Source: Saprolegnia diclina VS20
Taxonomy: Eukaryota; Oomycota; Saprolegniomycetes; Saprolegniales; Saprolegniaceae
Direction of reading: 5' to 3'
Assembly (NCBI RefSeq): GCF_000281045.1
Contig: NW_008246069.1
Coordinates: 1,264,534 to 1,302,627 of the forward strand
DNA length: 38,094 nt
Below the pieces are notes generated by a model that saw only the letters and a list, made by a program, of their open reading frames with translations, had not been told where the DNA came from and searched no databases. The translations under genes and the position numbers were made by a program. Below are positions 17,797 to 25,055 of the stretch, piece by piece. Each line of letters starts with the position of its first letter. Within the stretch, counting starts at the first letter, position 1.

Positions 17797-18361
17797 ATAC
17801 GCGTCGTCTACGCTACCTCCATGCCCCGGCCGTGCCGTCGCTTCCGCCCAAGCAAACGACGACCAAGACAAATCGGTTATTTATAGCGCGCCACGTCAGA
17901 AACACTGTAAATAGTGTGATATCGTATATAGTGTACATAGCCTTCACGCGCAACCAAGTCGGTGACTTCGTCGGGGGATGATCATGGCCGCTTTAGCCTG
18001 CGCAAGCTGCCTGTGCATGTTGACCTAGCGGCGGCAAAGAAGAGTCCAAAGAGCTCGGCGACGATCCAGCATGGCATCATGCACCAAGCGCAAGAGAAAA
18101 TGGTGGGATAAGCTTTCTATAAGCTTGGCAACGGCGTGGTCGTGATGGCGTCGAAGTCAACCCGGCTCACGACCTGGTGACGCGTGGAGCAGCATGGGCC
18201 AAGCATAGTAGCGTTGCGTGGCCCTGCCTGAAATGAAAGAGCCTGAGCAGCTGCGCCGACCAAGTCCCTTGCGTGCTTACGATACAGGAGAAAGTCATGG
18301 CGCATCGTATGTATTATGTGAAGCGGGTATCGCTACGCCATGCGAGCAAGCAACACCAAGT
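17797..18361. other. Gap with an orphan coding-like segment
   Basis: This stretch lies between a minus-strand gene start and the 3' end of ATP synthase beta copy 1. It contains an open frame on the plus strand at 17941-18111 with no ATG near its beginning, reading SGDDHGRFSLRKLPVHVDLA, then AAKKSPKSSATIQHGIMHQA, to a stop. Its composition looks coding. It could be the last exon of a gene whose earlier exons I cannot see, or a fragment of a disrupted gene. The final 250 bases are probably 3' untranslated region of the ATP synthase gene. Confidence 0.35.
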
Positions 18362-19893
18362 TTACTCGTCCAACTCGGAGGCGAGGGCCTTGGCCTTCTC
18401 CTTGACTTCCTCGATGCCGCCGACCATGAAGAAGGCGGCTTCCGGGAGGTCGTCGTACTCGCCGGCAAGGATGGCCTTGAACGACGAGACAGTCTCCGCG
18501 AGCGCCACAAACTTGCCCGGCTTGCCCGTAAACACTTCGGCGACGTGGAGCGGCTGCGACATGAACTTCTGCACCTTACGGGCGCGCGCGACCGTGAGCT
18601 TGTCGTCTTCCGACAACTCGTCCATGCCGAGAATGGCAATGATATCCTGGAGACCCTTGTAGTCCTGGAGCAGCTTCTGCGTCGCGCGAGCCACCTCGTA
18701 GTGCTCGTCACCAATCACACGCGGGTCGAGCATGCGCGACTTCGAGTCGAGCGGATCGACGGCAGGGTAGATACCGAGCTCCGAAATCTGGCGCGACAAC
18801 ACCGTCGTCGCATCCAAGTGCGAGAACGTCGTCGCCGGCGCCGGATCCGTAAGATCATCGGCCGGCACGTAAATGGCCTGCACCGACGTGATCGAACCCT
18901 TGAGCGTCGACGTAATGCGTTCCTGGAGCGCACCAAGATCCGTCGCCAACGTCGGCTGGTAACCGACAGCCGACGGGATACGACCGAGAAGAGCCGACAC
19001 CTCCGAGCACGCCTGCGTGAAGCGGAAAATGTTGTCCACGAACAAGAGCACGTCCTGGCCTTCCACATCACGGAAGTACTCGGCGACCGTCAGACCCGTA
19101 AGACCGACACGGGCGCGGGCACCCGGCGGCTCGTTCATCTGGCCGTACACGAGCGCAGCCTTCGAGCCCGTCGTCGTGCCGTCCGCGTTGAGCTTGATCA
19201 CACCCGACTCGATCATCTCGTGGTACAAGTCGTTGCCTTCGCGCGTGCGCTCGCCGACACCGGCAAACACCGACACACCACCGTGGTTGTTGGCCACGTT
19301 GTTGATCAACTCCATGATGACGACCGTCTTGCCGACACCAGCGCCGCCGAAAAGACCAATCTTGCCACCCTTGGCGTACGGCGCCAGCAAATCGACGACC
19401 TTGAGGCCCGTCACGAGCACCTCGGCGCCCGAGCCCTGCTCCGTGTAGAGCGGCGCGGCGCAGTGGATCGGCGCCTTCGTCGCCGAGTGGATCGGCCCAC
19501 GCTCATCGACCGGCTCGCCAATCACGTTCATGATGCGGCCAAGCGTCTCGGGACCGACGGGCACCTACACCGCGCTCAATATCCCATCGATTTCCAAACA
19601 AAGCACAGTACCATGATCGGGTTGCCCGTGTCCACGCACTCCTGGCCACGCACGAGACCGTCCGTGCCCTCCATGGCGATCGTGCGCACCGTGTTCTCGC
19701 CGAGGTGCTGCGCGACCTCGAGCACGATGCGGATGTTGTCGTTCGTGTTCTGCACCTCGAGCGCGTTGAGGATCGGCGGCAGGTTGTTGGTGAACTGGAC
19801 GTCGACGACGGCGCCGATGATCTGCGTGATGCGACCGACGGACGCGCCGGACGACGCGAAGCCGCGCGTCAGCGAGCGGGTCAGCGAGAGCAT
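18359..19893 (-). repeat. Left arm of 1.53-kb inverted repeat (ATP synthase beta)
   Basis: This segment is an inverted copy of 23521-25055. By comparing translations in several frames I found about six differences: silent changes in exon 1 (TTC/TTT) and exon 2 (GCT/GCC, CCT/CCG, GAT/GAC, CCG/CCC) and one base in the intron. Similarity ends at the ATG on one side and within three bases after the stop on the other. Confidence 0.9.
18362..19893 (-). CDS. ATP2: Mitochondrial F1 ATP synthase subunit beta, copy 1
   Basis: This is the catalytic beta subunit of the F1 sector that makes ATP on the matrix side of the inner mitochondrial membrane, 494 residues in two exons (19612-19893 and 18362-19564) around a 47-nt intron. 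An arginine-bearing presequence ([15 protein letters not shown]) targets the organelle, followed directly by [16 protein letters not shown]. Visible motifs are the P-loop [22 protein letters not shown], the [12 protein letters not shown] block, [12 protein letters not shown] and the DELSEDD region near the C-terminus. Nothing is missing, so the gene appears functional. The upstream 90 bp carry three CCGGATA-type motifs. The second copy at 23521-25052 encodes an identical protein in opposite orientation. Confidence 0.97.
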
Positions 19894-19940
19894 GTTGGAG
19901 CTTCTTTTGTACTGAAGCCGCAGCCACACAACAGCGATTG

Positions 19941-23520: not shown

Positions 23521-25052
23521 ATGCTCTCGCTGACCCGCTCGCTGACGCGCGGCTTTGCGTCGTCCGGCGCGTCCGTCGGTCGCATCACGCAGATCATCGG
23601 CGCCGTCGTCGACGTCCAGTTCACCAACAACCTGCCGCCGATCCTCAACGCGCTCGAGGTGCAGAACACGAACGACAACATCCGCATCGTGCTCGAGGTC
23701 GCGCAGCACCTCGGCGAGAACACGGTGCGCACGATCGCCATGGAGGGCACGGACGGTCTCGTGCGTGGCCAGGAGTGCGTGGACACGGGCAACCCGATCA
23801 TGGTACTGTGCATTGTTTGGAAATCGATGGGATATTGAGCGCGGTGTAGGTGCCCGTCGGTCCCGAGACGCTTGGCCGCATCATGAACGTGATTGGCGAG
23901 CCGGTCGATGAGCGTGGGCCGATCCACTCGGCGACGAAGGCGCCGATCCACTGCGCCGCGCCGCTCTACACGGAGCAGGGCTCGGGCGCCGAGGTGCTCG
24001 TGACGGGCCTCAAGGTCGTCGATTTGCTGGCGCCGTACGCCAAGGGTGGCAAGATTGGTCTTTTCGGCGGCGCTGGTGTCGGCAAGACGGTCGTCATCAT
24101 GGAGTTGATCAACAACGTGGCCAACAACCACGGTGGTGTGTCGGTGTTTGCCGGTGTCGGCGAGCGCACGCGCGAAGGCAACGACTTGTACCACGAGATG
24201 ATCGAGTCGGGTGTGATCAAGCTCAACGCGGACGGCACGACGACGGGCTCGAAGGCTGCGCTCGTGTACGGCCAGATGAACGAGCCGCCGGGTGCCCGCG
24301 CCCGTGTCGGTCTTACGGGTCTGACGGTCGCCGAGTACTTCCGTGATGTGGAAGGCCAGGACGTGCTCTTGTTCGTGGACAACATTTTCCGCTTCACGCA
24401 GGCGTGCTCGGAGGTGTCGGCTCTTCTCGGTCGTATCCCGTCGGCCGTCGGTTACCAGCCGACGTTGGCGACGGATCTTGGTGCGCTCCAGGAACGCATT
24501 ACGTCGACGCTCAAGGGTTCGATCACGTCGGTGCAGGCCATTTACGTGCCGGCCGATGATCTTACGGATCCGGCGCCGGCGACGACGTTCTCGCACTTGG
24601 ATGCGACGACGGTGTTGTCGCGCCAGATTTCGGAGCTCGGTATCTACCCGGCCGTCGACCCGCTCGACTCGAAGTCGCGCATGCTCGACCCGCGTGTGAT
24701 TGGTGACGAGCACTACGAGGTGGCTCGCGCGACGCAGAAGCTGCTCCAGGACTACAAGGGTCTCCAGGATATCATTGCCATTCTCGGCATGGACGAGTTG
24801 TCGGAAGACGACAAGCTCACGGTCGCGCGCGCCCGTAAGGTGCAGAAGTTCATGTCGCAGCCGCTCCACGTCGCCGAAGTGTTTACGGGCAAGCCCGGCA
24901 AGTTTGTGGCGCTCGCGGAGACTGTCTCGTCGTTCAAGGCCATCCTTGCCGGCGAGTACGACGACCTCCCGGAAGCCGCCTTCTTCATGGTCGGCGGCAT
25001 CGAGGAAGTCAAGGAGAAGGCCAAGGCCCTCGCCTCCGAGTTGGACGAGTAA
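23521..25052 (+). CDS. ATP2: Mitochondrial F1 ATP synthase subunit beta, copy 2
   Basis: A second complete gene for the catalytic beta subunit, 494 residues, with exons 23521-23802 and 23850-25052 around a 47-nt intron in the same place as in copy 1. The predicted protein is identical to copy 1, including presequence, GGAGVGKT P-loop and C-terminus. The intron, retained in both copies, rules out origin by reverse transcription. Its upstream DNA is unrelated to that of copy 1: no CCGGATA motif was seen, and the leader is pyrimidine-rich. The two copies may therefore be expressed under different conditions (inference). The stop lies 92 bp from the convergent leucine-rich-repeat gene. Confidence 0.97.
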
Positions 25053-25055
25053 ACT
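23521..25055 (+). repeat. Right arm of 1.53-kb inverted repeat (ATP synthase beta)
   Basis: This is the partner of 18359-19893. The spacer between the arms is about 3.6 kb. The arms match through exon 1, intron and exon 2 and diverge abruptly outside the coding region. Confidence 0.9.

Follow-up and report, generated by a model that had tools for sequence, protein, structure and literature searches.

How two genes for the beta subunit of mitochondrial F1-ATPase (F1-beta), lying head to head on a single contig of Saprolegnia diclina VS20, have come to be almost identical, and why their likeness ends where it does, are the questions raised by this locus. We analysed a window of 38,094 nt, meaning the whole stretch of DNA presented here, and searched the genome around it (54 Mb in 169 contigs, with the pair on one contig of 1,446,058 bases). 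The results make it likely that the pair is an older linked inverted duplicate, the coding stretches of which have been kept near-identical by ectopic gene conversion.

A repeat search (minimum 40 nt, seed 16) returned one inverted pair in the window. The two arms are 1,535 nt long each, are separated by 3,627 nt, and define the following features.

18359..19893, minus strand: arm A, from the repeat search and base-by-base alignment
18362..19893, minus strand: F1-beta copy A, 494 amino acids, PF00006 match of 232.8 bits
19893-19612, 19611-19565 and 19564-18362, minus strand: exon 1, intron (47 nt) and exon 2 of copy A
19894..23520, no strand: spacer between the two start codons, with no relationship between the two upstream regions
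23521..25055, plus strand: arm B, from the repeat search and base-by-base alignment
23521..25052, plus strand: F1-beta copy B, with a protein identical to that of copy A
23521-23802, 23803-23849 and 23850-25052, plus strand: exon 1, intron and exon 2 of copy B

The identity of the genes was established on copy B, where exon 2 alone scored 711.1 bits against the atpD model TIGR01039 (curated cut-off 462.85). Copy A is also F1-beta, because the two proteins showed no difference at any of 494 positions, and its N-terminus looks by eye like a mitochondrial presequence. Among the best 120 of 7,998 scored matches, the closest homologues were oomycete F1-beta proteins, those named near the top including Saprolegnia parasitica (96%), Lagenidium, Albugo and Plasmopara; the first match by score was a 779-aa Quercus suber record with 76% identity, and several of the high-ranking matches were metagenome proteins. 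At the protein level the one S. parasitica model compared differed from the F1-beta copies at 3 of 476 aligned positions. This public model lacks 18 residues around a conserved 10-residue stretch, a gap that is probably a false intron of the gene model.

A PF00006 profile search of the genome gave seven matches, two of them the F1-beta copies. Three of the other five were scanned, and these read as V-ATPase B (L003), V-ATPase A (L005) and, below the cut-off, a fragment resembling F1 alpha (L006). The gamma subunit (PF00231) was represented by two pieces adjoining on one contig. F1 alpha is encoded in the mtDNA of oomycetes, and the partner subunits therefore provide no dosage argument. Close to the pair, a 1,036-aa RCC1-repeat protein had its best named relatives in S. 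parasitica (82%), Achlya hypogyna (54%) and Aphanomyces (44% and 41%). The S. parasitica F1-beta gene and RCC1 relative are each on a contig of 1,615,555 bases, which hints at a syntenic locus in that species. At 2381-2499 the window also holds a short array of tandem 13-nt repeats. A neighbouring reading frame carries a CBS domain (2537-3016), and its gene looks by eye like that of a CLC chloride channel.

We compared the two arms base by base and found 6 mismatches in 1,535 positions (0.39%), at the following places in arm A/arm B.

19858/23556, 19602/23812, 18968/24446, 18764/24650, 18755/24659 and 18518/24896

Five of these are synonymous (codons 12, 293, 361, 364 and 443), giving a synonymous divergence of 5 in 377 sites (about 1.3%), and the sixth lies in the intron, which is the same at 46 of 47 positions in the two copies. 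The earlier note had described two head-to-head F1-beta genes as an inverted repeat, with identical proteins and about six differences, all silent or intronic, and had proposed such an alignment of the arms; its description was correct on each of these points. The longest mismatch-free run inside the arms was 634 nt, which is unremarkable (P=0.28), and no single conversion tract could be seen within them, a point that counts against our preferred reading. A DNA search of the whole genome with one arm listed matches at these two places only, with no third F1-beta copy or pseudogene among them.

The strongest clue to the history of the pair, absent from the earlier note, is the position at which the homology stops. 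On the 5' side it stops at the ATG itself, with 0 nt beyond, and on the 3' side only 3 nt follow the stop codon. Per 50-nt block, flanks of up to 300 nt on either side had 8-18 matching positions, which is the chance level, and blastn of longer flanks returned only pieces of up to 27 nt, with a best E of 0.003. A short TCAGT motif stands upstream of both ATGs, which we take to fit the oomycete initiator, and is too short to count. A retrotransposed copy was ruled out by the same 47-nt intron in both copies, as a retrocopy is without its intron. A young duplication normally brings some flanking DNA with it, and homology from ATG to stop codon between unrelated flanks is better explained by conversion within an older pair than by a recent copying event. 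A match that is limited to the coding stretch, with the intron inside it, points to an old duplicate that has been overwritten repeatedly wherever it could still pair. Of the two options in the earlier note, recent duplication or ongoing gene conversion, the choice itself was rightly framed and the boundaries give better support to the second.

On the sequence evidence we infer that the copies are old and that conversion has been the agent. Ectopic gene conversion between the arms would homogenise the exons together with the intron that they enclose. Conversion requires matching DNA, and purifying selection would keep the coding sequence pairable, while UTRs, promoters and spacer, being under weaker constraint, have diverged beyond recognition. 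The conversion tracts would stop at the start and stop codons because the flanks no longer match. The outcome would be a single protein produced from two independent promoters, both copies presumably being expressed.

The spacer presumably contains both promoters and 5' UTRs. Its G+C content is 52.9%, against 63.4% in arm B, and it holds two dispersed repeats.

20880..21182, no strand: second dispersed repeat, more diverged, with 69-79% identity to other places
21689..21969, no strand: dispersed repeat of about 280 nt, with copies on other contigs that reach 95% identity

At least 42 matches were listed for these repeat families, the spacer itself included, and the counts are lower bounds. No terminal inverted repeat was present in the first and last 25 nt of the 21689..21969 element as delimited, its ends being provisional. 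The dispersed repeats indicate an intergenic part that is open to insertions, which fits the loss of flank homology.

We searched this genome for four families (tubulin, HSP70, histone and EF1A), compared the loci of each family pairwise, and analysed three of the pairs in detail. The families were picked as likely to be multi-copy and highly expressed, and do not sample the genome at random. The beta-tubulin pair (L019/L020 on contig C45) is head to head with 1,681 nt between the start codons, and showed 92.1% identity over the coding sequence (73 silent differences in 324.9 sites) and unrelated flanks. The TPR-HSP70 fusion pair (L036/L039 on contig C15) is also head to head, 2,375 nt apart, and is 99.0% identical from the ATG over the readable part, the remainder of one copy being N. 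The two EF1A genes are on different contigs (L074 on C6 and L075 on C14) and showed 98.75% coding identity, so that the coding-limited pattern occurs here without close linkage.

The boundaries of these pairs resembled those of F1-beta. Homology started 1 nt upstream of the ATG in TPR-HSP70 and 0 nt upstream in beta-tubulin, and in EF1A it reached only 33 nt 5' and 2 nt 3' of the coding sequence. In all three pairs with a readable 3' end, homology went no further than 3 nt beyond the stop codon (F1-beta 3 nt, tubulin 0 nt, EF1A 2 nt). Silent divergence was 0.013 for F1-beta, 0.035 for both HSP70 and EF1A, and 0.22 for tubulin, values that are lower bounds because codons with amino-acid changes were left out.

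Two head-to-head mitochondrial-carrier pairs, picked by coordinates among the matches listed, showed 69.5% identity over 1,064 nt and 67.9% over 689 nt; a third such pair, about 13 kb apart, lay outside the comparison. With the carrier pairs at 68-70% and tubulin at 92.1%, head-to-head layout alone does not homogenise genes. This is a counterpoint to our preferred reading, as inverted proximity is insufficient in the carriers and tubulin, and the EF1A copies are alike though unlinked. For actin and HSP90, judged by coordinates only, there was no opposite-strand pair on one contig among the matches listed.

Other copies were observed in the families compared. A third related TPR-HSP70 copy (L037) is also on contig C15, and comparison with this third HSP70-like copy gave no clear breakpoint that would indicate mosaic structure. 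Three histone coding copies on contig C16 (L062, L063 and L070) were 98.5-99.5% identical between separate places, while others (L060 and L061) were at 90-96%. We take one histone copy to be H2A by its start, and its neighbours to be H2B.

This lineage may maintain a set of presumably highly expressed pairs, several of them head to head (F1-beta, TPR-HSP70 and beta-tubulin), in a state homogenised from start to stop, a suggestion that we make tentatively and with more doubt than belief. If true, coding-limited conversion would be habitual across the genome and would let regulation diverge without divergence of the proteins, each protein having two promoters that evolve freely. The graded series of pairs in one genome (0.4%, 1.0%, 1.25%, 8% and about 30% DNA differences) also poses the question of what decides homogenisation.

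Among the alternatives, the one that survives best is a recent inverted duplication of the coding stretch and its intron only, the copies being merely young. The low synonymous divergence of 1.3% agrees with this, and according to the available part of one survey, newborn duplicates in worms are often adjacent and inverted, and limited duplication span is the likely cause of absent flank homology in the younger pairs of yeast (PMC2728529). However, a single recent event would require that both breakpoints happened to fall no more than 3 nt from the start and stop codons, with like coincidences for the tubulin, HSP70 and EF1A pairs. The tubulin pair shows the same boundaries despite its greater silent divergence of 0.22. 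We consider it unlikely that youth explains the F1-beta pair.

We regard as still less probable an assembly artefact in which both loci are real and their identity has been inflated by shared reads assigned to both arms. Runs of N, perhaps assembly gaps or masked stretches, were present in 7 of the 78 loci examined, and separately assembled haplotypes are described for the S. parasitica assembly (454 and Sanger), which is not the assembly used here, in the accessible text of its report (PMC3681718). However, the window is without N, six distinct differences have been retained between the arms, and the same assembly preserved many differences in the tubulin and carrier pairs. With flanks unrelated on both sides, neither arm can be a duplicated contig. 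A misassembly that created a false second copy is likewise unlikely, each arm having its own unrelated flanks on one contig.

Inversion of the spacer, raised in the earlier note, would be feasible in principle. It is barely conceivable that the inverted arms form a switch by which the 3.6-kb spacer is turned round and the promoters of the two genes are swapped: near-identical inverted arms of 1.5 kb do flank both upstream regions, and a homologous crossover would invert the spacer, but the one assembly has a single orientation, and in either orientation the two promoters would drive one and the same protein, the coding regions being alike.

Codon preference was evaluated with a null model in which two sequences were sampled for the F1-beta protein, using 2,000 simulations for each of two codon-usage sets (that of F1-beta itself, or that of EF1A and two beta-tubulins of the same genome). 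The expected number of identical codons among 494 was on average 320.1 with F1-beta's own usage and 331.3 with EF1A/tubulin usage. The simulations peaked at 358 and 363, whereas the two genes share 489 identical codons; codon preference accounts for about two thirds of the identical codons. Codon bias as the sole cause was refuted by this simulation, and chance is excluded. That two old copies are alike through strong codon preference and protein constraint alone has next to no credibility, since the high GC3 of the gene (0.86) and its conservation (88-90% identity to full-length oomycete proteins outside Saprolegnia, with Albugo at 86%, among the matches listed) stand against these codon counts and an intron that is alike at all but one position. 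The earlier view that protein-level selection is insufficient to explain the identity of the arms thus holds for both intron and codons.

Multiple copies of the F1 subunit genes ATP1, ATP2 and ATP3 have been reported in yeast. In oomycetes no F1-beta pair of the kind described here was reported in the literature listed, as covered by titles and the starts of abstracts. The closest resemblance is to palindromic pairs of Drosophila. As presented in the available portion of the source, the amylase genes Amy-p and Amy-d form such a palindromic pair of linked inverted paralogues, like the F1-beta pair, and the palindromes Hsp70Aa/Ab and Hsp70Ba/Bb are close inverted pairs with ongoing ectopic conversion (PMC3924832). 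The evidence differs in kind: in the same portion, the concerted evolution of Amy is demonstrated by comparison between species, and conversion in Hsp70 rests on shared silent polymorphism and species comparison, whereas the F1-beta pair is known from the assembly of one genome. It also belongs to a different gene and eukaryotic group from Amy, with an intron inside the homologous stretch and both ends of that stretch no more than 3 nt from the start and stop codons.

In Saccharomyces cerevisiae, 56 low-Ks single-locus pairs have been surveyed, and in the part of the survey available to us, 0-10 bp of flank homology was found in about 80% of them on the 5' side and 86% on the 3' side (PMC2728529). 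The low silent divergence of the older yeast pairs is put down there to conversion and/or codon bias. However, 46 of the 56 pairs are remnants of whole-genome duplication, while the F1-beta copies are adjacent and inverted. For S. parasitica, the accessible part of the genome report gives loss of heterozygosity in about a third of the assembled genome and a polymorphism rate that peaks at 2.6% (PMC3681718). By this yardstick, taken from another species, the F1-beta copies would be closer to each other (0.39%) than typical alleles.

By its layout, by a silent identity beyond what codon bias gives, and by its boundary, the F1-beta pair agrees with the Amy and Hsp70 type. It is best read as an example of an already known process, in a gene and a group that are new to it, and not as a new kind of system. 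As such, it offers a clean example from nature of homogenisation confined to the coding part of a core energy gene of the oomycetes, and a case in which low synonymous divergence may fail to date duplicates.
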